Virus record (IMG/VR): IMGVR_UViG_3300021197_000077
Span: 1-23,940 of that record
DNA: 23,940 nt
Origin: a virus
Strand: one strand, 5' to 3'
Shown here piece by piece: positions 1,114-14,615 of the stretch. Position 1 is the first letter of the stretch; each line of letters opens with the position of its first letter. The translations under genes and the position numbers were made by a program. The notes below the pieces were generated by a model that saw only the letters and a list, made by a program, of their open reading frames with translations, ran no database searches and was not told the origin of the DNA.

Positions 1114-2234
1114 AATGTATCACCTTTATTGTTACTCCCTACAGTCGATTGTACAGTTATGTCTCTCTGTGTCAAGGCACTATTTGCACTTTCGTAAGTA
1201 TGCTTGTGATATGGTTTCACAGAAGACACATGTGTATGCCCTGATACAGCCATGATTTGTGGCAATGGTACACCCTTGTCTATCATTTGTGTTATACCAG
1301 TTCTCCTTATGTCCATAAGACGTAGCTCTTCAGGTAGTTTTGCTAACCGCATGATCCTTCGTCCAACCTTGGACAGTCTCTCCATTGCGTATGGTTTGTA
1401 CACACCCTTAGTAGGTACGGGATGTGGCACTACCCACTGCTGAAAACCAAAGTCTGCTTTGTGCTCACGCAGCATCTCAGCTAGGTTATCAGAGATAGGA
1501 AGGAACACATCAGCCCTACGCTTACTCTGCTCTAATGTAAGCTGTTGCTTATCCAAGTCAAGGTTAGACCACTCAAGCATACGCATATCACCCAGACGCT
1601 GACACCACTCGTATGCCATGTGTACAATCAACCCCACATTCCTGTAGTCAAAGTCGCTGTAAGCTACATCAAGGAACTTGTTCACCTCACCGTGTGACCA
1701 CACCATCTTACGCTGCTTAGTTGTCTTACGCTTTATCTTGTTAAATGGGTTTTGCTCTGCATGTTCCATTTGTATAGCGTAATTGTACACTCTGCTTGCA
1801 CATGTTGCCGCATGATTAGCAAAGCTGATGCCACGTTTGACCCACCCCTCGTATGCAGCCTTTGCAACTTTAGGTGTAACGTCTTTGTACTTACGACACC
1901 CAATTGTCTGGTGTAATATGGTCAGGAAGTACCTATAATCTACCTTAGTTGTATCACGCAACATATTGAAATCATTAGATTGATAATAAAAGTTAATCAA
2001 GTCTGTGACCTTGCTGCTTGGCTTCAATCCTACAACCTTAGCTTGTTCTACACGCCAATCATCTATTGCCTTGTTGTGTTCACGTGCAATCTTTCGCACC
2101 TGTCTAAGATCACAACCGTACTCTTCACGCTTAACCACACCTGCATCTACCAGTGTCTGTGGTGGATTGAAACGGTATGAGATGTCACCCGAAGGTGACA
2201 CCCGTTGCTGTACATATCGTGGCAGTGTATTCAT
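1110..2234 (-). CDS. int: tyrosine recombinase / phage integrase
   Basis: Site-specific recombinase of the tyrosine family, 374 aa, the usual length for phage integrases. An N-terminal arm region is followed by a SAM-like core-binding domain (about residues 74-165) and the catalytic domain. Catalytic residues that can be placed are Arg213 (CQRLGDMRMLEW), Arg310 (MDIRRTG), His333 (SGHTH) and the nucleophile Tyr342 (KPYHKHT). The histidine that normally begins the HxxR motif is Met307 here. The gene is joined by overlapping stop/start codons to the DUF932 gene upstream and the primase downstream, so it is not an isolated lysogeny cassette. I could not identify an att site. Integration, resolution of multimers or DNA inversion are all possible uses. 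Confidence 0.92.
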   Translation of the reverse strand: MNTLPRYVQQRVSPSGDISYRFNPPQTLVDAGVVKREEYGCDLRQVRKIAREHNKAIDDWRVEQAKVVGLKPSSKVTDLINFYYQSNDFNMLRDTTKVDYRYFLTILHQTIGCRKYKDVTPKVAKAAYEGWVKRGISFANHAATCASRVYNYAIQMEHAEQNPFNKIKRKTTKQRKMVWSHGEVNKFLDVAYSDFDYRNVGLIVHMAYEWCQRLGDMRMLEWSNLDLDKQQLTLEQSKRRADVFLPISDNLAEMLREHKADFGFQQWVVPHPVPTKGVYKPYAMERLSKVGRRIMRLAKLPEELRLMDIRRTGITQMIDKGVPLPQIMAVSGHTHVSSVKPYHKHTYESANSALTQRDITVQSTVGSNNKGDTL

Positions 2235-3082
2235 TAAGCAGCTTCCAACTGAATGAAACGATCATCAGATACCCACTTGCTCACCTCTTGCTCACGACTA
2301 AACATGCTGATGGCCTGTGTGTCATTGCCAGTGTTACGTAAGCTAAACCCATTACGCTCATCAGCATGTGATGCATAGTTTGTGAACGCAGAGTACAATG
2401 CCCACTTGTTGTGACCACGTTGTGAAGCCTCATGGCAATACAACTCGTACATCTTTTCAGACTTACGCTTGGATGTAATCATGTCCTCAAGCAAAGACTG
2501 TATGTTTACATATTTAAGATCAGTATCAGCCCACACCTGCATCTTGGCAGTCTCTTGGTAGAAGTCACGTCTTGCACGATTTAACTCGTAGATGAAACCA
2601 TCTAACGTAAAGTTAGACGTGTTCTTTTTACGAACCTTGTCGTATTCGCCACGTATCATGCCGTTTGTGCAGAAATAATCAATCTGACCAAAGAACACTT
2701 GGTTGCTGCACGAACCATCAATGCCATGCAGTGAGATAATACGATTACCTAGCGTAGTTGTGTGTTTTTCTGTGGCAATCTCTACCTGCATGTCAGGCAG
2801 TGTAATGTCTAACATAGACCATGCACCACCTCGTGCAGTACGCCAGTTGTACTTGGCATTTGTCATCTCTGATGGCTCAAGATTCTCTGTCAGTGTGTCC
2901 ATGACACCACGGTAGAAGTCACCGTGTGATGCACAGGTAAAACCTGTACCCACTATACCCATGTATTCACCAGTGTCACCATTGATGACATACTTCTTGT
3001 CTTTTACTCGTGTTGGTTCAAACTCCACGTCAAAATCTAGGTGGGTGGGAATGTCGAATGTGTTATGTATATCAAATGGCAT
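2234..3082 (-). CDS. DUF932-like phage/plasmid protein
   Basis: The 282-aa protein resembles the DUF932 family found in phages and plasmids. The recognisable parts are an early segment ending in GEYMGIVGTGF, a middle segment with LGNRIISLHGIDGSCSNQ and the FCTNGMIRG motif, and a charged alpha-helical C-terminal half. The family's biochemical role is not established; members often sit among replication or recombination genes, as here. The start codon overlaps the stop of a 43-aa gene (TAATG), and the stop overlaps the integrase start in the same way. An AGAAGGAGAT ribosome binding site lies just upstream. The family call is by eye from motif order and is fairly secure. Confidence 0.8.
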   Translation of the reverse strand: MPFDIHNTFDIPTHLDFDVEFEPTRVKDKKYVINGDTGEYMGIVGTGFTCASHGDFYRGVMDTLTENLEPSEMTNAKYNWRTARGGAWSMLDITLPDMQVEIATEKHTTTLGNRIISLHGIDGSCSNQVFFGQIDYFCTNGMIRGEYDKVRKKNTSNFTLDGFIYELNRARRDFYQETAKMQVWADTDLKYVNIQSLLEDMITSKRKSEKMYELYCHEASQRGHNKWALYSAFTNYASHADERNGFSLRNTGNDTQAISMFSREQEVSKWVSDDRFIQLEAA

Positions 3083-3213
3083 TACTTATCTCCTTCTAAG
3101 CTGTTGCGGATTTCTTGTAGTAGTTCTTTTAGTTTGCGGTTGTTTGCCATACGTGTGCTGGGTAGTATTTCCTCGCACATTTTAAGCAACTTTAGTTCCA
3201 GTGATTTTTTCAT
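3082..3213 (-). CDS. small basic hypothetical protein, 43 aa
   Basis: A 43-aa open frame begins MKKSLELKLLKMCEEIL and ends RNSLEGDK. It is helix-forming and rich in Lys, Leu and Glu, with no cysteine pair or membrane segment. It has a good AAAGGAA ribosome binding site 7 nt before ATG, and its TAA stop overlaps the ATG of the DUF932 gene (TAATG). Both points argue for real, coupled translation. Function is unknown; amphipathic helices of this size are often small regulators or protein-binding peptides, but nothing specific can be claimed. Confidence 0.7.
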   Translation of the reverse strand: MKKSLELKLLKMCEEILPSTRMANNRKLKELLQEIRNSLEGDK

Positions 3214-3280
3214 ATGTATTCCTTTCAGTTGTTATTGGGGCAACTCTGCCATAGTTGTATAGCATTGTCCAGACATTTCT

Positions 3281-3673
3281 TTACTTGTAAAAGATGTGTG
3301 ATCCATGTGTCACAGTTTTATCATAGTGTTTACTCCACCACGGTCTAACATAGTTAGCGTGGTAATATGTCGCACCATCAGTGTTATCTTTGTGGTAGTC
3401 ATACAATACGTTGTATGCAACTACCCTAGCATATAGCCATGATAGTTCATCTTTGGGTACATCAGACTTGCCATCACAGTACCACGAGAACTGGCACTTA
3501 CCCAAGCCCTTGCTGTACCCCTGCTTGACCACCTTACATGCATCATCGGGGAATGATTCATTGGCTACACGGTTAAGCACAACATGGGCTACAGCGTACT
3601 GCCCCACCATCGGCTCACTACGTGCCTCGTAGTACACGTTCAGTGCAAGGCATGTTAGGAATGCTTCAATCAT
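3281..3673 (-). CDS. SleB-like cell wall hydrolase
   Basis: Probable peptidoglycan hydrolase of the SleB/CwlJ (Hydrolase_2) family, 130 aa, about the size of the catalytic domain alone. Family hallmarks are ALNVYYEAR near the N-terminus (Glu16 is the likely catalytic acid), GQYAVAHVVLNRV, and the CQFSWYCDG block near residues 60-68. The first 15 residues are hydrophobic but I do not see a clean signal peptidase site. The start overlaps the end of the 70-aa gene upstream by 8 nt. It is read with replication genes, far from the holin/M15 endolysin cassette on the other strand, so it may act at a different stage from lysis, for example in entry or wall remodelling. That last point is inference. 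Confidence 0.85.
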   Translation of the reverse strand: MIEAFLTCLALNVYYEARSEPMVGQYAVAHVVLNRVANESFPDDACKVVKQGYSKGLGKCQFSWYCDGKSDVPKDELSWLYARVVAYNVLYDYHKDNTDGATYYHANYVRPWWSKHYDKTVTHGSHIFYK

Positions 3674-3878
3674 CTTTGTATAACTCCATTACTGTGTGTG
3701 TTAGATCGGAAATCATCTTGTATACGTTTTCCCAATCCCAATACTCATACGTATCTACTGCACATTCAACGAACCATTCTTCTAGGTATTCATCATCAAA
3801 GTCCTGCCAGTTCTTAGGCAGTTCCTGTGTAAGAAAGTGTGCAGATAGTTTTGCAAATACTTGTTCAAACTTAGGCAT
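3666..3878 (-). CDS. hypothetical acidic protein, 70 aa
   Basis: A small, strongly acidic protein rich in Trp, Tyr and Phe (for example DTYEYWDWENVYK in the middle). I do not recognise a family. An AAGGAGA ribosome binding site precedes the start at good spacing, and the end overlaps the start of the SleB-like hydrolase by 8 nt, which supports translation. Acidic aromatic-rich small phage proteins can be nucleic-acid mimics, but there is no direct evidence for that here. Confidence 0.72.
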   Translation of the reverse strand: MPKFEQVFAKLSAHFLTQELPKNWQDFDDEYLEEWFVECAVDTYEYWDWENVYKMISDLTHTVMELYKDD

Positions 3879-3945
3879 ATTCTATCTCCTTTGGTTTAGG
3901 TATTTGTCTGTCTGACCAATCATCACATGGATCATCAGGCGGCAT
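3871..3945 (-). CDS. possible 24-aa peptide bridging two genes
   Basis: A very short frame (begins MPPDDPCDDW, Pro/Asp-rich) starts inside the last codons of the 128-aa gene and ends on the start of the 70-aa gene, where ATGCCTAA joins the two. It fills an otherwise untranslated gap of about 56 nt in an arm where almost every gap is bridged by overlapping genes. There is no clear ribosome binding site apart from a weak AGGAT, so it would depend on coupling. Its sequence gives no functional clue. It may be chance. Confidence 0.25.
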   Translation of the reverse strand: MPPDDPCDDWSDRQIPKPKEIEYA

Positions 3946-4321
3946 CGGCTTCTGATCCTGATGTGTAGACTGATATGAATATACGTGTACCATCGCCATC
4001 GCTTTCACTGTCTGAGATGAGGCGTACTTCATTACCTGCATCAGCATATTGCTTTAGCTTTTGTATGCTAATGCGTTTGTCACCACGTTTACCACTGCGA
4101 TAGAACGTGATGTCAGCTTCTGTGCCATCAATGTACTCACCTATGATAGTGAACTTTTTACGTTCAAACCTATCTTTATCAGCGTTGTAGAACTGTTCAG
4201 TAAAAAACTTGTCAGTGTAGTCCATGCCAAAGTCCTCTAATAAGAAACTTTGCACAGTTTTGTTGGCATCTATGATGCTTTTATCTAGCATCGTCTTAGT
4301 CAGTTTGATCCTTGCGTCCAT
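3935..4321 (-). CDS. hypothetical protein, 128 aa, possible EcoRII-N-like fold
   Basis: The protein contains the block ADITFYRSGKRGDKRISI (residues about 79-96), followed by a short helix. This weakly recalls the DNA-effector-binding domain at the N-terminus of EcoRII (an IYYNSR ... KRIT pattern), but the resemblance is by eye and unverified. No catalytic motif is visible. The start has an AAAGGAG ribosome binding site and overlaps the end of the upstream membrane-protein gene. A profile search would settle the fold. Without that it should be treated as hypothetical. Confidence 0.72.
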   Translation of the reverse strand: MDARIKLTKTMLDKSIIDANKTVQSFLLEDFGMDYTDKFFTEQFYNADKDRFERKKFTIIGEYIDGTEADITFYRSGKRGDKRISIQKLKQYADAGNEVRLISDSESDGDGTRIFISVYTSGSEADAA

Positions 4322-4496
4322 AAATAACTCCTTTCAGTTTACGAAACATCCATATGAATATATACAACTGTATATACACAACGAACAATGTCTCTGTTTC
4401 AATAGACTTTACGTCATACCCTACGTTTGCTGCAATAGCAACCGTAAACATCATGGCAAAGTACGCAGCCATAGGTATGGTAAACAGGTGCATCAT
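4296..4496 (-). CDS. small inner-membrane protein, two predicted TM helices
   Basis: A 66-aa protein with two hydrophobic stretches, about residues 3-24 (MMHLFTIPMAAYFAMMFTVA region) and 36-51 (TLFVVYIQLYIFIWMF). They are separated by a short acidic loop and followed by a basic tail (RKLKGVIYGRK), which suggests an inner-membrane hairpin with a cytoplasmic C-terminus. The start overlaps the preceding stop as ATGA and the end overlaps the next gene by 26 nt. Small early membrane proteins of this type can be superinfection-exclusion or host-takeover factors; no family is recognised. Confidence 0.72.
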   Translation of the reverse strand: MMHLFTIPMAAYFAMMFTVAIAANVGYDVKSIETETLFVVYIQLYIFIWMFRKLKGVIYGRKDQTD

Positions 4497-4732
4497 TGTA
4501 AGGCAATAGGTGCAGAATGTATGTACCCATAATCTTTGTATTCTTCCATTTCAAACTCACCACATTCTATAAATGATATGTTGGTTGCGTCTGGATAGTA
4601 ATGCCTTGCCATGTGTAATGCCAATTCAGTTGCGCTATGCCAATCATCAACGGTGGGATAGAGGTCATCTAACTCAACGACACTATCCACACCATCAATA
4701 TCAATGGTTACATCGTAACCCATTACTTTCAT
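4493..4732 (-). CDS. hypothetical acidic protein, 79 aa
   Basis: Unrecognised acidic protein with a repeated VDSVVELDDLYPTVDDW-type segment and a tyrosine-rich C-terminus. I chose the start at 4732 because it overlaps the upstream stop as ATGA and has AAAGGA eight bases before it. An in-frame ATG at 4756 would add eight residues but lies well inside the upstream gene. The end overlaps the start of the membrane-protein gene as ATGA. Function is unknown. Confidence 0.68.
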   Translation of the reverse strand: MKVMGYDVTIDIDGVDSVVELDDLYPTVDDWHSATELALHMARHYYPDATNISFIECGEFEMEEYKDYGYIHSAPIALQ

Positions 4733-5022
4733 CCAACCATTCCTTTGTAACTCCATGCACGATCATCATTAGGCAGCACACACGGCTTCCAGTGGCATGG
4801 TCTGTCTTCATATTCCTCGTGCTTTTGTGGCTTAAAGTTAAACGTTTCCTTTAACACATATGCTTTGTGGCGCAAGTCACCTAACGTACTCAAGTTTACG
4901 TCAAACATTTCTGCTGCATCATCTAGCATAGTGTCTAACGCATTGTACAACGCAAGTATTTCTAATGCTTTGTCCTCTTGAAGTAGGTATGTTAGTTTCT
5001 CTGGTGTTTTTGTTTTGGTCAT
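4729..5022 (-). CDS. hypothetical helical protein, 97 aa
   Basis: The protein is predicted mostly helical (KALEILALYNALDTMLDDAAEMF). The LDDAAEMFDVNLSTLGDLRHKAY segment could be read as a degenerate helix-turn-helix. The tail has two cysteines about nine residues apart. Start support is strong, with AAGGAG 8 nt before ATG and a four-base ATGA overlap with the upstream stop. The end overlaps the next start in the same way. A DNA-binding role is only a possibility. Confidence 0.7.
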   Translation of the reverse strand: MTKTKTPEKLTYLLQEDKALEILALYNALDTMLDDAAEMFDVNLSTLGDLRHKAYVLKETFNFKPQKHEEYEDRPCHWKPCVLPNDDRAWSYKGMVG

Positions 5023-5414: not shown

Positions 5415-5526
5415 TGTATTTTCCTTTCGCATAATTTATGCATACACGTTTGTCAGATGATATGATGATGACCTTTCCGTCATCACCATACACAACCCAT
5501 TTATTTTTGTAGGGAACTAAGTACAT
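5404..5526 (-). CDS. small hypothetical protein, 40 aa
   Basis: A 40-aa frame begins MYLVPYKNKWVVYGDDGKV and ends KGKYNES. It looks like a small beta-sheet protein. The ATG overlaps the stop of the winged-helix-like gene (TAATG) and the TGA falls just inside the next gene, so it exactly fills the gap between them. This junction geometry is the same as at many other boundaries of this arm. No family is recognised. Confidence 0.6.
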   Translation of the reverse strand: MYLVPYKNKWVVYGDDGKVIIISSDKRVCINYAKGKYNES

Positions 5527-5864
5527 TAACTAGCAAGCTGCTCTAGTTGACTTTGTACTTTGCGTAGTTGTACTCGCAACTCACGCTCTTGCTTAAGCAA
5601 TTTTGTCTTACCAGTATACTTGCCCTTGATAAGCCCAAGTGTTTTTAATACTTGTATACGGTATACAATACGGTTGGGCAATTCATTCATTGCTTCTGCA
5701 ATTTGTGCAATGGTCATTTCATCCCATAGCTCGACAATAACCTCATCAATTACACAGTAGTTGTATGTATATGATTTTGCACGATTCATGTGATATGTAT
5801 GATCTGCATACAATTCTGGGTGTGCGGCTTTAACTACAGGTGTGTTTGGGTTTGAGTTTGTCAT
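5526..5864 (-). CDS. putative winged-helix regulator with coiled-coil tail, 112 aa
   Basis: The middle of the protein (about residues 48-82) reads as a helix-turn-helix with a wing: MTIAQIAEAMNELPNRIVYR, then VLKTLGLIKGKYTGK. A Leu/Gln/Glu/Arg-rich C-terminal helix (residues 86-110) could dimerise as a coiled coil. This layout suits a dimeric DNA-binding regulator, and this is one candidate for binding the palindrome repeated in this arm. That link is inference. An AGGAGAAT ribosome binding site precedes the ATG. The DNA-binding call is moderately supported; no specific family is assigned. Confidence 0.7.
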   Translation of the reverse strand: MTNSNPNTPVVKAAHPELYADHTYHMNRAKSYTYNYCVIDEVIVELWDEMTIAQIAEAMNELPNRIVYRIQVLKTLGLIKGKYTGKTKLLKQERELRVQLRKVQSQLEQLAS

Positions 5865-5887: not shown

Positions 5888-6040
5888 TTAGTTTGCTAGT
5901 TTACGGTTAATTTGCTTTTGCTTACGTGCAATCTTACGCTCTCGCTTCCAATCATCACGCTTGCTTGGTTTGTCAAACTGTCCAACGTTGGACGCTTTTG
6001 ACTTAGAAAACTTAATAAAGTTTTGCATCTCGTAACGCAT
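5888..6040 (-). CDS. small basic protein, 50 aa, containing an in-frame palindrome
   Basis: The frame begins MRYEMQNFIKFSKSKASNV and ends in a very basic tail (KRERKIARKQKQINRKLAN). It has a GAAGGAA ribosome binding site eight bases before ATG and sits neatly between its neighbours. The 14-bp palindrome at 5980-5993 lies within it and is read as Ser-Asn-Val-Gly, exactly as in the 223-aa protein. The lysine/arginine-rich tail suggests nucleic-acid binding. It is otherwise unrecognised. Confidence 0.62.
   Translation of the reverse strand: MRYEMQNFIKFSKSKASNVGQFDKPSKRDDWKRERKIARKQKQINRKLAN
5980..5993. promoter_or_regulatory. palindromic operator-like site, copy 1 (inside the 50-aa gene)
   Basis: Perfect GTCCAACGTTGGAC within coding sequence, preceded by ACT and followed by GCTTTT on the plus strand. 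In the minus-strand frame it reads as Ser-Asn-Val-Gly. Confidence 0.6.
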
Positions 6041-6081
6041 TTTGCTTTTCCTTCTGCTTTGGTTTACGTTTGTTGCCCTTT

Positions 6082-6357
6082 TTAGGTGGCACTGTCTGCG
6101 GTGACTTGCGTTCCTGTAGCATTGCCCTTGCCACGGGATTTATGTATGTGAGTTTTGTCGATTTCATCACGTATCTCCTGTAATGCTCGTATCAAACTTG
6201 TGAGCGAACTGCCATAACGTACAATATACATGTCTGCTGTCGCTGGCAATATTGCGATTTCTTGTACCCATGTTTTACCATTGTCTCCGTGTTGGGCAAT
6301 TGAAACTTCATTGCCCTTGTGCTTAACATTTATGTTATTGAAAACTAAACCCATCAT
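6082..6357 (-). CDS. hypothetical protein, 91 aa
   Basis: A small protein with a beta-rich N-terminal half (MGLVFNNINVKHKGNEVSI ... WVQEIAILP) followed by a helix (SSLTSLIRALQEIRDEIDK) and a polar tail. Two consecutive ATG codons at 6357 and 6354 can serve as start; the first overlaps the stop of the GP88-like gene (TAATG). I see no catalytic motif and do not recognise the family. Tight coupling to the GP88-like gene suggests the two are made together. Confidence 0.7.
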   Translation of the reverse strand: MMGLVFNNINVKHKGNEVSIAQHGDNGKTWVQEIAILPATADMYIVRYGSSLTSLIRALQEIRDEIDKTHIHKSRGKGNATGTQVTADSAT

Positions 6358-7046
6358 TACACTCCTTGTGCTACTTGATCTGCTTTGCGTTTACTTGCAC
6401 CATGTGCAGGAAAACCTACGATTGCATCACGCATTCTTGCACACAATTGGCAATCAACACATGCTACATCATCCTTGACCACGGCAGGGCATACAACAAC
6501 CTTGCGTCCTTTAGGTGTGGTTGTATTAGTCATCTGATCGGCAGGTAAAACGGTGGTCACTGGTGCAATGCCAAGATCATACAATGCATCAGCATGATTG
6601 AGATTGTTACCAGACAGGTTGACCACAAAGCCCTTGTCATTCATATGCTTGACTACTTGTGCATTATGCTTGCTAGTCAATACGGGATAGTGTGTGTATG
6701 TCCAACCACGTTTGCCAGTGTTAGCATCGGCAAGCTCTGCATTGGCATCGGCATCAAGTAATTTGCCATCACCTGCAAGATCACCTGCTTGATTGTGCCG
6801 CCACAATTCACCAACCTTGAACGATTTGACTTTGGCAATGAATGTTGACCAACCATCGCCACGTTCACGCTTAGTCACCTTTGCCCAATGCATAGCAAGT
6901 GGGCCACCGTTAGCATAGCAGCCACCTTCGTTTGCATTGTTGAACGGGCAAACATCGGGGCATGTATCTGCTGATGTGGTTGTGACGGGTATCTTACCAA
7001 CCTTGCGATTGTTTGATTTGATTGTGGTATGTACTTGATAAGTCAT
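6357..7046 (-). CDS. GP88-like cysteine-rich phage protein
   Basis: This 229-aa protein matches my memory of a family in phages and alphaproteobacterial genomes, related to mycobacteriophage gene product 88. An N-terminal stretch KVGKIPVTTTSADTCP is followed by Cys29, Cys33 and Cys43 (GGCYA), a central GELWRHNQAGDL and TGKRGWTYTH region, then a second cluster Cys186, Cys196-x2-Cys199-x2-Cys202 and the ending VGFPAHG. Seven cysteines in two clusters would suit an iron-sulfur or zinc site, but the chemistry is not known to me. It is the first gene after promoter P1 and one palindrome, with ACGGAGT as ribosome binding site. Confidence 0.78.
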   Translation of the reverse strand: MTYQVHTTIKSNNRKVGKIPVTTTSADTCPDVCPFNNANEGGCYANGGPLAMHWAKVTKRERGDGWSTFIAKVKSFKVGELWRHNQAGDLAGDGKLLDADANAELADANTGKRGWTYTHYPVLTSKHNAQVVKHMNDKGFVVNLSGNNLNHADALYDLGIAPVTTVLPADQMTNTTTPKGRKVVVCPAVVKDDVACVDCQLCARMRDAIVGFPAHGASKRKADQVAQGV

Positions 7047-7066
7047 TCGACTAACTCCGTTAAAGT

Positions 7067-7080
7067 GTCCAACGTTGGAC
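7067..7080. promoter_or_regulatory. palindromic operator-like site, copy 2
   Basis: Perfect palindrome GTCCAACGTTGGAC, about 10 bases downstream of the predicted transcription start of P1 and upstream of the ribosome binding site of the GP88-like gene. On the minus strand it is flanked by GAAACC on the left and ACTTT on the right, a context shared with the copies at 7459 and 8678. The position suits a repressor roadblock. Confidence 0.7.
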
Positions 7081-7096
7081 GGTTTCGGTTTGCTTT

Positions 7097-7126
7097 AGTA
7101 TATGTATACGTTATTTATACTTTCAA
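7097..7126 (-). promoter_or_regulatory. putative sigma70-like promoter P1 for the GP88-like gene
   Basis: On the minus strand TTGAAA (7126-7121) is followed after 18 bases by TATACT (7102-7097). It lies about 50 bases upstream of the GP88-like start and overlaps an AT-rich inverted repeat, with the palindrome just downstream. Prediction from sequence only. Confidence 0.5.
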
Positions 7127-7147
7127 TAAATATCAAGTATAAATAAC
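7110..7147. repeat. AT-rich inverted repeat at P1 (13-bp arms, 12-nt spacer)
   Basis: Arms 7110-7122 and 7135-7147 are perfect reverse complements. With one mismatch and one bulged base the pairing extends outward by about ten more pairs to roughly 7099-7158. The spacer starts TCA, as in the related repeats at 7495 and 8474. It covers the -35 box and spacer of P1. Confidence 0.75.
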
Positions 7148-7168
7148 TTATACTATACATAAGGACTA

Positions 7169-7438
7169 TTATTCCTCTCCAAATGTAGCATCCCATTCCT
7201 CTGGTGTAATACCAGAAATCAGGAACTCACGTTGATCATTATCCAATTGTGGGAACGCATCCTGCACAAGCATACATGTGTCAATCCAGTATTCGATCTG
7301 GCCTTGACGCACAGGAAGAACCATCTGGTTTTGCTTACCAGACAATAGGGATGCTTTCGTGATACGCACCTGATTTTCTGCAACATGCTCAATAATCATT
7401 TGCGATGTATTGCTGAGATTAGTTGTTTCAATAATCAT
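7169..7438 (-). CDS. small conserved phage protein, 89 aa (GITPEEW motif)
   Basis: The C-terminal half contains QDAFPQLDNDQREFLISG and GITPEEWDATFGEE. I recall this pattern from many small phage non-structural proteins of unknown function, so the family is probably widespread though unnamed here. The N-terminus is beta-rich (MIIETTNLSNTSQMIIEHV). The gene has its own promoter (P2), palindrome and ACGGAGT ribosome binding site, arranged as for the GP88-like gene, so the two are probably regulated together. It ends in two consecutive stops (TAA TAG). Confidence 0.75.
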   Translation of the reverse strand: MIIETTNLSNTSQMIIEHVAENQVRITKASLLSGKQNQMVLPVRQGQIEYWIDTCMLVQDAFPQLDNDQREFLISGITPEEWDATFGEE

Positions 7439-7458
7439 TTCGGTTACTCCGTAAAAGT

Positions 7459-7472
7459 GTCCAACGTTGGAC
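7459..7472. promoter_or_regulatory. palindromic operator-like site, copy 3
   Basis: Perfect GTCCAACGTTGGAC lying about 5 bases downstream of the predicted start of P2. It has the same minus-strand flanks (GAAACC left, ACTTTT right) as copy 2 and is upstream of the ACGGAGT ribosome binding site of the 89-aa gene. Confidence 0.7.
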
Positions 7473-7483
7473 GGTTTCAGTTA

Positions 7484-7512
7484 AGTGTACACATGTTATA
7501 TAACACTTTCAC
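7484..7512 (-). promoter_or_regulatory. putative promoter P2 for the 89-aa gene
   Basis: On the minus strand GTGAAA (7512-7507), a 17-base spacer and TACACT (7489-7484) line up with P1. An alternative overlapping pair is TTGAAA (7523-7518), 17 bases and TATAAC (7500-7495). Both lie inside the inverted repeat. Prediction only. Confidence 0.45.
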
Positions 7513-7535
7513 TTATGTTTCAAGTGTTATATAAC
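7495..7535. repeat. AT-rich inverted repeat at P2 (14-bp arms, 13-nt spacer)
   Basis: Arms 7495-7508 and 7522-7535 are perfect reverse complements. Past one bulged base (7494), four further pairs form between 7490-7493 and 7536-7539. Arm sequence resembles P1 (AAGTxTxxxATAAC) but differs at several positions, and pairing is kept. Confidence 0.78.
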
Positions 7536-7545
7536 TGTGGCACTG

Positions 7546-7710
7546 TTAAATGCCTTCAATCAGCAGCATCAGCAGCACAAAGACATAGGGGATCAGGCAT
7601 ACGATAAACGCTGGGCTTAACATACCACCAGACGTAAGTATGCCTATGCTACCCACAATCACGGTTGCAGATAGCATGGCAATCACGATAATTGCTTTAG
7701 CAATAAACAT
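7546..7710 (-). CDS. small membrane protein, 54 aa, two TM helices
   Basis: The frame encodes a very hydrophobic 54-aa peptide: helix one about residues 2-24 (FIAKAIIVIAMLSATVIVG) and helix two about 31-51 (LSPAFIVCLIPYVFVLLMLL), separated by a short Ser/Gly turn. An ACGGAGT ribosome binding site lies 7 bases before the ATG, within a leader (TTTTAACGGAGT) nearly identical to those of the GP88-like and 89-aa genes. Function is unknown. Candidates are superinfection exclusion or membrane anchoring of early proteins; holin is less likely given its early position. Confidence 0.68.
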   Translation of the reverse strand: MFIAKAIIVIAMLSATVIVGSIGILTSGGMLSPAFIVCLIPYVFVLLMLLIEGI

Positions 7711-7742
7711 GTATAAACTCCGTTAAAATTGAAACACCAATA

Positions 7743-7760
7743 CAGCCCCCAAAGGGGCTG
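7743..7760 (-). terminator. GC-rich hairpin after the 223-aa gene, possible terminator
   Basis: CAGCCCC (7743-7749) pairs with GGGGCTG (7754-7760) across a 4-nt loop, 17 bases after the stop of the 223-aa gene. On the minus strand only scattered Ts follow, so intrinsic termination would be weak. It may instead be a processing or stabilising hairpin. Confidence 0.4.
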
Positions 7761-7776
7761 CATAAATGCGTCAATC

Positions 7777-8448
7777 TTAAGCTGCTTTCTTCGCCTTACG
7801 CTTGCTAGGCTTTGCCTTTGCAGGTGCTTGTGTCTTGACTTCAGTACGTGATTGCTTTGCAACATGTGACTGAAGGTCATTGATGATGTCCTCAAGGTTG
7901 AGGTTACTACGTTTGCAGTGTTCCAAAATGGTATCCACCATTTTTGTACGGGTTACAATCACATTGACAGAACGTTGTTCTGTTGCACCTGACTTCTCTG
8001 CTTTAGCAGGAGTAGCCTCAGACTGTCCAACGTTGGACACTTGTTCCGTAGGAACGTTTGCTTTAGCAGTATCGGCAGGTTTGTCAGCCTCTCGCATGGC
8101 TCTCTGTAAGGCAGAGAGTGACGTGAAGCCTTTCTTTGAGGCTTGCATGAACTCACGACACTTGACCTCATTCTCAGCGAACCACAGAGCTTCTGCTCTG
8201 CGTCTACGGTCAATTTTGTGGATTCCATGAGTCGTCAATACTTGACGGGAAATCTGACCACTATCCAACGATGAAGCGGCCTTCAATTGCATAAGCAATT
8301 TACCCAAGCGAGTGTCAAAGCCGTTGGCTTTCGTGCTGTCTTTCAGACTGTTAGTCTGCTTCCAAATACGACCAAGGGCTTTGCCCTCTTGAACCATTGC
8401 GTCAATTGAAGTTCCTTCAACTTGCTGAGTTTTTGCTGATTTTGCCAT
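7777..8448 (-). CDS. basic DNA- or RNA-binding-like protein, 223 aa, first gene of the early arm
   Basis: I do not recognise the family. The protein has an N-terminal helical region, a basic patch with IHKIDRRRRAEALWFAENE (about residues 76-94), a low-complexity Ala/Lys/Thr linker (about 121-160), another helical segment (MVDTILEHCKRSN..LEDIINDL) and a histone-like basic tail ending SKRKAKKAA. This suggests nucleic-acid binding. It has its own promoter (P3), an AAAGGAG ribosome binding site and first position in the arm. Its coding DNA is unusual: about a dozen perfect short stem-loops and one in-frame copy of the 14-bp palindrome (8025-8038, read as Ser-Asn-Val-Gly). It is a candidate for the regulator of this arm or a replication initiator, by position only. 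Confidence 0.75.
   Translation of the reverse strand: MAKSAKTQQVEGTSIDAMVQEGKALGRIWKQTNSLKDSTKANGFDTRLGKLLMQLKAASSLDSGQISRQVLTTHGIHKIDRRRRAEALWFAENEVKCREFMQASKKGFTSLSALQRAMREADKPADTAKANVPTEQVSNVGQSEATPAKAEKSGATEQRSVNVIVTRTKMVDTILEHCKRSNLNLEDIINDLQSHVAKQSRTEVKTQAPAKAKPSKRKAKKAA
8025..8038. promoter_or_regulatory. palindromic operator-like site, copy 4 (inside the 223-aa gene)
   Basis: Perfect GTCCAACGTTGGAC within coding sequence, preceded by ACT and followed by ACTT on the plus strand. It is in the same codon phase as copy 1, giving Ser-Asn-Val-Gly. Confidence 0.6.
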
Positions 8449-8461
8449 TGGATGGCTCCTT

Positions 8462-8554
8462 TCTCTATCTGATGTTTATATAAGAAATATTTAACTATTT
8501 CACTAAAGATGAATAGTTAAATATTTCTTGTATAAACGTAAGATCAGATAGAGA
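8462..8554. repeat. giant inverted repeat upstream of the 223-aa gene
   Basis: Inner arms 8474-8499 and 8512-8537 (26 bp each) are reverse complements except for one G-T pair, around a 12-nt spacer. After a 5-nt bulge on one side (8538-8542), outer arms 8462-8473 and 8543-8554 pair perfectly for 12 bp. It contains promoter P3 and reaches the ribosome binding site of the 223-aa gene. Confidence 0.88.
8475..8503 (-). promoter_or_regulatory. putative promoter P3 for the 223-aa gene
   Basis: On the minus strand GTGAAA (8503-8498), 17 bases and TATAAA (8480-8475). The layout matches P1 and P2, with the -35 box at the edge of the inverted-repeat spacer. A start near 8468 would give a leader of about 20 bases with AAAGGAG (8462-8456). 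Confidence 0.5.
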
Positions 8555-8574
8555 GTTGCGATTTTGGTTCTCAT
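8503..8574 (-). CDS. possible 23-aa leader peptide overlapping the giant inverted repeat
   Basis: A short frame beginning MRTKIATLYLILRLYKKYL follows AGAGGAT, a fair ribosome binding site, and its TAG stop lies in the spacer of the giant inverted repeat. If transcribed from an upstream promoter, ribosomes on it would open the hairpin arm, which would suit attenuation of the 223-aa gene. No homology is known, and it may be chance. Confidence 0.25.
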   Translation of the reverse strand: MRTKIATLYLILRLYKKYLTIHL

Positions 8575-8677
8575 GCGTGATCCTCTGCGCCTGTCGTTTC
8601 CCGTGTGACTGCAGGAATACCTTCAGTATTCCGAAGTTCGTGTGTGAAACTTGTGTGTATGCACGAGGCTCTGAACC

Positions 8678-8691
8678 GTCCAACGTTGGAC
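8678..8691. promoter_or_regulatory. palindromic operator-like site, copy 5 (opposite orientation)
   Basis: Perfect GTCCAACGTTGGAC. Its flanks, GAACC to the left and ACTTT to the right on the plus strand, match those seen on the minus strand for copies 2 and 3. It is therefore turned towards the plus-strand arm. Confidence 0.65.
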
Positions 8692-9053: not shown

Positions 9054-9223
9054 TGTTACAGTTTTGTAACATAATGTGATGTATCTGTAGTAACGTTTTG
9101 TTACAGTATTCACTTTTTTCTGTAACATTGTCGATTGTGTATTGACATGCCTGTTAAAGTGTGTAAAACTATATAATAGGGAAACTAAGATGACACTAAC
9201 AGTGATACATGTACAATGTAACA
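9054..9223. repeat. cluster of TGTWACA heptamers, possible iterons
   Basis: TGTTACA or TGTAACA occurs at 9054-9060, 9065-9071, 9099-9105, 9121-9127 and 9217-9223. A related GTAAC at 9090-9094 pairs with GTTAC at 9100-9104. The first two copies face each other as a 6-bp stem. The spacing is irregular, so initiator binding is only a possibility. Confidence 0.45.
9142..9177 (+). promoter_or_regulatory. possible plus-strand promoter elements
   Basis: TTGACA (9142-9147) and TATAAT (9172-9177) are both perfect consensus boxes but stand 24 bases apart, too far for one normal sigma70 promoter. With a 16-base spacer the -10 would be TAAAAC (9164-9169). It is a plausible site for late-arm transcription only if spacing is relaxed or an activator is used. 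Confidence 0.25.
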
Positions 9224-11126: not shown

Positions 11127-11477
11127 ATGAAGACATTAGTAATTGCATCTGCATTGGCAGTTGCAGCAACATCAGTATCAGCAATTGATCTAGGCAATGG
11201 CCTATCAATGGGTGCTGAAGTAGACGCTAACTATGTAACTGGCGTAGATATGTGGGCATTGGAAGCAACTCCATACGCAGCTATCTCACAGTATGGCGTT
11301 ACATTAAAGGCAGAAACAACAGTAAATGTGCTGAAAATTAATGAAGATGACGTATTCAAAGGTGTAGACCTTACAGCAGAATATGTTTGGAACAGCATGA
11401 CTACGTACACAGAAATTTCATCAGACGCAGACTTTGAGTTTGGTGACGTAACAATAGGCGCAAAGATTAAGTTCTAA
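11127..11477 (+). CDS. beta-barrel-like exported protein, 116 aa
   Basis: A clear signal peptide (MKTLVIASALAVAATSVSA, cleavage likely after ALA-type SVSA) precedes a sequence of alternating polar and hydrophobic residues (LSMGAEVDANYV, YAAISQYGVTLKAETTVNV, LTAEYVWNSMTTYTEI). It ends in phenylalanine (GAKIKF), the typical final residue of outer-membrane barrel proteins. At about 97 mature residues it could form six to eight strands. In a phage it might mask or alter a receptor or the envelope, but no role is established. An AGGAATAA ribosome binding site is present. Confidence 0.7.
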   Translation: MKTLVIASALAVAATSVSAIDLGNGLSMGAEVDANYVTGVDMWALEATPYAAISQYGVTLKAETTVNVLKINEDDVFKGVDLTAEYVWNSMTTYTEISSDADFEFGDVTIGAKIKF

Positions 11478-14200: not shown

Positions 14201-14615
14201 ACCATTAAAGAAATGGAAGTTACCCCAACCAACTGACATAAAAGAAGACAATGAGTGGATACCCATTCCACGTATATCCAGAACAATTCCATTTGGATAT
14301 GACATAGACCCTGATGATCCAGACGTACTGTTGCCTAATGAGAACCAGTTAGATATGCTAGAAAAAGCAAAGCAATATCTAAAACAATACTCATATCGTG
14401 AAGTAGCCAATTGGCTGGCACGAAATACAGGCAGAGATATATCTCACGTAGGTTTGAAGAAGCGGTTAGATAATGAGCGAACAAGAAAAAACAAAGCTGG
14501 AAGCCTTCGCAGATGGGCAGACTATGCGAAAAAGGCAATCGCCAAAGCGGAAGAGCTTGAAGCCAAACGCCTCGGTGCAAAAACAGATAACGAAAAAGAA
14601 ACCAGCGCAGCCTAA
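14193..14615 (+). CDS. hypothetical helix-turn-helix-like protein upstream of TerL, 140 aa
   Basis: The segment YSYREVANWLARNTGRDISH (about residues 66-85) reads as a helix-turn-helix, followed by GLKKRLDNERTRKNKAG and a long charged helix (YAKKAIAKAEELEAKRLG). The N-terminus is proline-rich. Proteins of this layout are common just before TerL in marine phages and may form part of the packaging start complex, but this one has no assigned role. Its last 143 nt overlap the annotated TerL start in another frame. Confidence 0.7.
   Translation: MTKPLKKWKLPQPTDIKEDNEWIPIPRISRTIPFGYDIDPDDPDVLLPNENQLDMLEKAKQYLKQYSYREVANWLARNTGRDISHVGLKKRLDNERTRKNKAGSLRRWADYAKKAIAKAEELEAKRLGAKTDNEKETSAA

Follow-up and report, generated by a model that had tools for sequence, protein, structure and literature searches.

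Lambdoid CI/Cro and other dimeric phage repressors bind short palindromic operators, and changes in the recognition helix alter their specificity; in the lambdoid N-nut/boxB systems of antitermination, oriented elements in the early leaders are recognized by phage-specific readers. According to the available excerpts of two reports, L5-type phages carry 20-30 asymmetric 13-14-bp sites, known as stoperators, distributed genome-wide and bound by a helix-turn-helix (HTH) monomer, with the L5 repressor stopping the elongating polymerase at these sites (PMC6550527, PMC9283540). Here, the 14-bp palindrome GTCCAACGTTGGAC is described from a 23,940-bp virus fragment (IMG/VR record IMGVR_UViG_3300021197_000077, positions 1 to 23,940; this whole stretch is called the window), together with gp01, the protein encoded among its copies. 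By its sequence, the window phage is a CRP-345/CRP-1-like (HMO-2011-type) Roseobacter phage. The HMO-2011-type core genes, which include terminase, portal, primase and integrase, match CRP-345/CRP-1 in DNA or protein, and such phages are grouped as HMO-2011-type in the excerpts available of PMC9038755 and PMC6918029. From the comparison of relatives, it is proposed that the palindromes are very probably the operators of gp01, which would be a small, basic and helical DNA-binding repressor, likely also blocking transcription elongation.

Five exact copies of GTCCAACGTTGGAC are present in the early arm of the window, all within 2.7 kb; the genes of this arm are encoded on the minus strand (Table 1). 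The same five had been listed by a first-pass annotation made from the letters alone, and all were recovered by a scan of the fragment. Allowing up to three mismatches, the scan returned a single extra match, at 1361 (one mismatch). In 100 dinucleotide shuffles, the mean was 0.66 matches at this threshold and none contained six, as expected from the annotation's argument that a 14-mer should not recur in this way by chance. The flanks common to the copies at 7067, 7459 and 8678 (ACC left, ACTTT right), with the last copy facing the opposite way, are also as the annotation had described them. It had placed the copies at 7067 and 7459, however, 5-10 bases downstream of predicted starts; because the genes run on the minus strand, these copies are actually upstream, with 20 nt between each copy and its start codon, and both are directly followed by an ACGGAG Shine-Dalgarno sequence.

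The sites accompany gp01 across the phages. Loci were chosen by gp01 homology alone (the best 80 of 204 relatives, 81 with the window), and 79 of them had a complete gp01 open reading frame (ORF; two were dropped), comprising 67 distinct gp01 proteins. All 67 gp01 loci contain GTCC-N6-GGAC sites, with 2-9 per locus. Over 654,941 bases these total 339, where the 256 palindromic tetramers average 17.7 and the runner-up, TATA, has 79. An exact site is present inside the gp01 gene itself in 63 of the 67 loci. A second set was selected by primase (the best 80 of 596 relatives, 36 of them examined), and here the loci reaching at least 8 kb upstream encode gp01 in 14 of 14 cases and have 4-7 sites in 13 of 14, some counting the copy in the integrase gene. 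Starting from the sites, 68 of the 80 stretches holding the 25-base oriented element encode gp01; the 12 others have the element about 1.2 kb or less from the end past which gp01 would be expected. Among 29 virus records with matches, 27 have 4-8 sites each. In the long ones, these cluster in the early region, and the complete records of CRP-345 and CRP-1 show the same. CRP-1, CRP-345 and HMO-2011 have the same gp01 family and sites; in HMO-2011, these correspond to the homolog gp74 (67.9 bits with the gp01 profile) and five copies of GTCCGACAGCGGAC. Conversely, two members of this phage group, CRP-2 and CRP-603, have no GTCCRANNTYGGAC and no detectable gp01, with one unrelated GTCC-N6-GGAC each, and neither gp01 nor GTCCRANNTYGGAC was found in the first 50 kb of CRP-3 and CRP-207. 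The annotation had staked its proposal on conservation in close relatives, where the sites are indeed kept, and on rarity in host DNA; a search of 84,980 bacterial and archaeal species, each represented by one genome, did not find the full leader element.

The positions of the sites follow a regular plan. Of 61 sites upstream of gp01, 59 lie 203-296 nt before this gene, and the 64 sites inside gp01 are all in one frame, encoding SNVG (53), SDVG (7), SDIG (2), SNIG (1) or SKVG (1). Of the 208 sites downstream of gp01, 113 are closely followed by a Shine-Dalgarno sequence and a start codon, and in 91 of these the start codon is 19-21 nt from the site. The genes behind 112 leader sites belong to 24 unrelated families. 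The stop codon of the preceding ORF is at most 15 nt away in 35 of 112 leaders and within 80 nt in a further 28 (63/112), and in the tightest of these gaps a promoter would have scarcely any space. The context AAAC[CGT]-N14-ACTTT occurs 107 times, 102 of which are exact sites and the remaining five unrelated sequence. Additionally, the reading frame of the coding sites varies, with S-N-V-G encoded in gp01 and in the 50-amino-acid p50, and C-P-T-L-D in relatives of an L5 gp82-like gene, and the palindrome is kept regardless of the frame. The annotation had also raised a partition or replication role, and parS/iteron-like sites for partition, replication or packaging would, like these, be repeated, palindromic and clustered near a divergent control region; however, many sites are phased on the start codons of many different genes, others are spread over coding sequences, and no ParB or Rep match was found beyond the weak KorB match given below, which makes such a role very improbable.

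As portrayed in the excerpts available, cluster A mycobacteriophage stoperators (L5, Bxb1, TipsytheTRex) have in common with this arrangement a phage-encoded reader, dispersed sites many of which fall in short intergenic gaps, an orientation relative to transcription, one site by the repressor gene, and co-variation of site and repressor between phages. The difference is that here the sites are palindromic, number 2-9 and are restricted to the early region, coding sequences included, and that the proposed reader, gp01, gave no sequence or fold match. The short palindromic operators and the proposed helix-dependent specificity are features of CI/Cro as well, but operators of that kind are grouped at two promoters, whereas the sites of gp01 are scattered in leaders and coding sequences and their proposed reader belongs to no recognized HTH family.

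The sites of one phage change together. Among the 67 loci, 58 have the center AANNTT (A-type) and nine GANNTC (G-type); a third group has GACGTT (loci L149-L151 and L153, and partly L006, L011, L020 and L068), and HMO-2011 has GACAGC. The integrase match at 1361 was not counted as a site, because L139 and L174, in which the other sites have become GANNTC, still have GTCCAAGGTTGGAC there. A match at 14469 of CRP-345 was likewise set aside as a coding match that follows neither the switch nor gp01. A more extreme change was found in locus L199 (37% GC), where gp01 is barely recognizable (E 8e-5) and GTCC-N6-GGAC is absent; its early region (1758-4887) has instead six GTTACA-N3-TGTAAC palindromes (GTTACATAATGTAAC), one of them 21 nt before a start codon and another in p50, at the same residues (15-20) as the p50 site of the window. 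We read this one genome as a probable case of complete operator replacement at kept positions. In viral contigs, the only close relatives found for L199 gp01 and HMO-2011 gp74 were these proteins themselves, and no close relative of L199 gp01 was found in phage records. A de novo search for repeats in the early regions of CRP-2, CRP-603, CRP-207 and CRP-3 (the first 6 kb of the last two) returned no comparable set. The probability that the palindromes are chance occurrences or a functionless mobile repeat is virtually nil: the 14-mer is found singly in many unrelated GC-rich contigs, as chance predicts, but conserved position, concerted switching and independence of the reading frame refute this explanation for the set.

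Two further palindromes were noted beside these sets. In the control region of the window, GTTACAGTTTTGTAAC (9055-9070) resembles the L199 operator, and a second regulator may act there. The control region of CRP-603, a phage without gp01, has four TGTGATCACA palindromes, perhaps an operator set of its own.

The re-coding changes gp01 itself from SNVG to SDVG or SDIG, so that it is the nucleic acid that is kept, and this would probably be DNA. It is unlikely that the palindrome acts as a small hairpin of the early mRNA, bound by gp01 for translation control or for antitermination of the nut/boxB kind. Folding of four site-bearing leaders was no better than that of shuffles (z -0.68 to 0.36), and there are no wobble variants among the 107 leader contexts. 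The fixed spacing to start codons does suit an RNA element, as does the orientation of the leader sites, with AATGTT in the center of 85 and AACATT in five; nevertheless, the site upstream of gp01, which faces the other arm, has mostly the opposite orientation (AATGTT 9, AACATT 26), and both orientations are present in coding sequences, 36 to 18. Similarly, the half-switched sites are G..T in the gp01 sense in 14 of 14 cases and never A..C, as a G-U pair would allow, but they stem from about three lineages and are thus not independent. The sites resemble N-nut/boxB in being oriented early-leader elements with a phage-specific reader and differ in being perfect DNA palindromes, one per gene, which also occur in coding sequence and facing the other arm.

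The type of the sites is followed by residues of gp01. On a tree made without the helix and linker columns, seven changes of site type are needed, six of them forced by well-supported branches. Among 192 columns of gp01 (the site-encoded column 139 was left out), those following the type best are 112, 119, 120, 101 and 116. At residue 112, 57 of the 58 A-type proteins have T (the window has S) and all nine G-type proteins have S. Residue 119 is always R or K in the 58 A-type proteins and is N (4), S (2), A (1), Y (1) or K (1) in G-type ones, and residue 116 is K in all nine G-type proteins. Residues 112, 116 and 119 occupy positions i, i+4 and i+7 of a helix predicted by AlphaFold2 (111-122). 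As a control, 12 other early-region proteins were compared, and none of their columns reached 0.9 apart from the codon of the site in p50; four of the 17 window proteins, DUF7227 among them, had too few rows for this comparison. Of the three proteins that the annotation had named as candidates, the 223-amino-acid gp01 is thus favored, and the 89-amino-acid protein has no tracking column. The third, a 112-amino-acid HTH-like protein, was rejected, since its recognition segment is common to L130 (GANNTC) and L133 (AANNTT), as well as to L139 (GANNTC) and the window, and since L104, L127 and L128 have an unrelated 76-amino-acid protein in its place. The slot of this protein (5526-5864 in the window), between p50 and the L5 gp82-like gene, appears exchangeable, holding either the 112-amino-acid winged-HTH-like or the 76-amino-acid protein.

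What the comparison of loci shows is a set of sites with a regular geometry that switches in concert and is tracked by residues 112, 116 and 119; reading of the sites by gp01 is the best explanation. It is quite improbable that a host factor or another phage protein reads them and that gp01 merely travels along. Phages exchange whole modules and the binding of gp01 is deduced from sequence comparison, both of which leave room for another reader; however, among the testable proteins only gp01 has tracking columns outside a site, and the 112-amino-acid protein does not track. A host factor would also not explain the difference between the window and L127, which are 94-99% identical at the neighboring genes p229, p91 and p50 and have different site types.

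The gp01 protein is basic, with a net charge of +17. The AlphaFold2 model has an N-terminal domain, a variable linker carrying the site, and two C-terminal helices; the N-terminal domain, modeled alone, consists of confident helices (predicted local distance difference test 83.9, predicted template modeling score 0.75). The predicted helices 94-103 and 111-122 are HTH-like in layout only. Searches of Pfam and PHROGs with 41 gp01 members gave no consistent family (at most seven members per family), one member weakly matching KorB (E 0.099). A PDB sequence search returned nothing below E 1.8, a PDB fold search had best values of E 0.96 (full gp01 model) and 1.2 (N-domain), and the top VIA-align scores of the gp01 models were Z 4.3 (over 71 residues, 4.4 A) and Z 3.9 (over 80 residues, 4.4 A). 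None of these searches recognized a known fold, which does not imply that the fold is new. The sole BFVD match below 0.001 is S4S2E1 (205 amino acids, E 8.2e-6), which, judging from its length, appears to be HMO-2011 gp74. In the phage records of CRP-1, CRP-345 and HMO-2011, gp01 is named only as a hypothetical protein and the sites are unannotated.

Here it is proposed that gp01, encoded at the head of the early arm, binds the palindromes directly, with the predicted helix 111-122 reading the half-site GTCCRA, presumably once per subunit of a dimer. It would occupy one site some 230 bp before the gp01 gene, another within that gene and, at several other early genes, a site immediately preceding the ribosome-binding site. 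Binding would most likely be repressive, and gp01 would thereby control its own synthesis. Sites between a stop codon and the next ribosome-binding site are poorly placed to act on initiation and well placed to act on an elongating polymerase, and bound gp01 may stop transcription entering or crossing the early units, in the manner of stoperators. A dimeric, self-regulating repressor with dispersed operators would be the most economical model. The annotation had suggested a single dimeric repressor: its one regulator, phage-encoded and with a phage-specific regulon, is upheld by the comparison, and its dimeric binding and repression are what we infer.

Several observations weigh against this proposal. 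The fold of gp01 is no recognized HTH, the gp74 gene of HMO-2011 has no site within it, the A-type locus L292 has one G-type site, and L206, which stops short of gp01, has no site in the 6 kb that it covers upstream of primase. Of six tree-independent pairs, an average of 5.5 agree at residue 112 (median p 0.031) and 5.0 at residue 119 (p 0.0625), these sign tests being weak because only six independent pairs exist. The residues S112-R116-R119 of the window (AACGTT) are shared with L149, L006 and L020, whose sites are partly GACGTT, so that the three residues are not a complete code. Additionally, 67 pattern stretches in bacterial genome contigs contained no gp01 relative, leaving lysogenic repression without support from prophages in the genomes searched.

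These phages carry an integrase; in the excerpts available of PMC6918029, CRP-3 integrates and no integration site is known for CRP-1. A wider proposal is put forward tentatively, with the chances somewhat against it: gp01 would represent a new class of DNA-reading repressor fold, its stoperator-like sites would define groups of superinfection immunity in a phage group that is among the most abundant of the ocean, and escape from rival repressors would have driven at least six re-codings of the whole set and one complete operator replacement (GTCC-N6-GGAC to GTTACATAATGTAAC) with positions kept. Immunity groups would then become predictable from metagenomic sequence. A phage repressor with dispersed sites is of a known kind; what is new, within the reach of the searches, is the family to which the reader belongs, the placing of palindromic sites in leaders, and the succession of re-coded sets. 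A literature search for the 14-mer found no mention of it. The comparison names a putative regulator together with its set of operators and three residues that may determine specificity, and natural variants of the code are available. Such a series, with its intermediates and one probable case of complete operator replacement, would be a rare natural example of the rewiring of a whole regulon.

Table 1. Coordinates of the sites, of gp01 and of the associated early genes in the window.
Feature	Position	Strand	Basis or remark
Control-region site	8678..8691	+	Exact match; 230 nt upstream of gp01 start; flanks toward late (+) arm
Site within gp01 coding sequence	8025..8038	.	Exact match; encodes S-N-V-G
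Leader site of 89-aa gene	7459..7472	-	Exact match; end 20 nt ahead of start codon at 7438
Leader site of DUF7227 gene	7067..7080	-	Exact match; end 20 nt ahead of start codon at 7046
Site within 50-aa gene p50, residues 16-20	5980..5993	.	Exact match; orthologous site in relatives
gp01, 223 aa, proposed reader	7777..8448	-	Ortholog of CRP-345 gp01, CRP-1 gp01 and HMO-2011 gp74
Predicted recognition helix codons, gp01 residues 111-122	8083..8118	-	AlphaFold2 helix; tracking residues 112, 116, 119
89-aa gene (phrog_20898) behind leader site	7169..7438	-	ORF list, site geometry
229-aa DUF7227 gene behind leader site	6357..7046	-	ORF list, site geometry
50-aa gene p50 with site in coding sequence	5888..6040	-	ORF list, relatives

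Other features were also noted. Long AT-rich inverted repeats are present upstream of several early genes (7104-7153, 7478-7552 and 8467-8544), and the same kind of repeat, with a TAGTGAAA-like loop, was found in the leaders of relatives and of HMO-2011; these repeats could hold promoters or be processed in the mRNA. The only Rfam match, on the AT-rich hairpin, was a sub-threshold one to a plant microRNA, a promoter scan was uninformative (11 sites vs. 10.5 expected), and the tRNA search found none. A terminator-like hairpin (7740-7763, minus strand) lies directly behind the gp01 stop codon. The DUF7227 protein has about 50% identity to Pseudomonas phage proteins, e.g., that of PAK_P1, and 166 of the 181 phage records that it matches are Pseudomonas phages. 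Finally, a 116-amino-acid ORF (11127-11477) with a signal-peptide-like start reads, by eye, like a small outer-membrane barrel protein.

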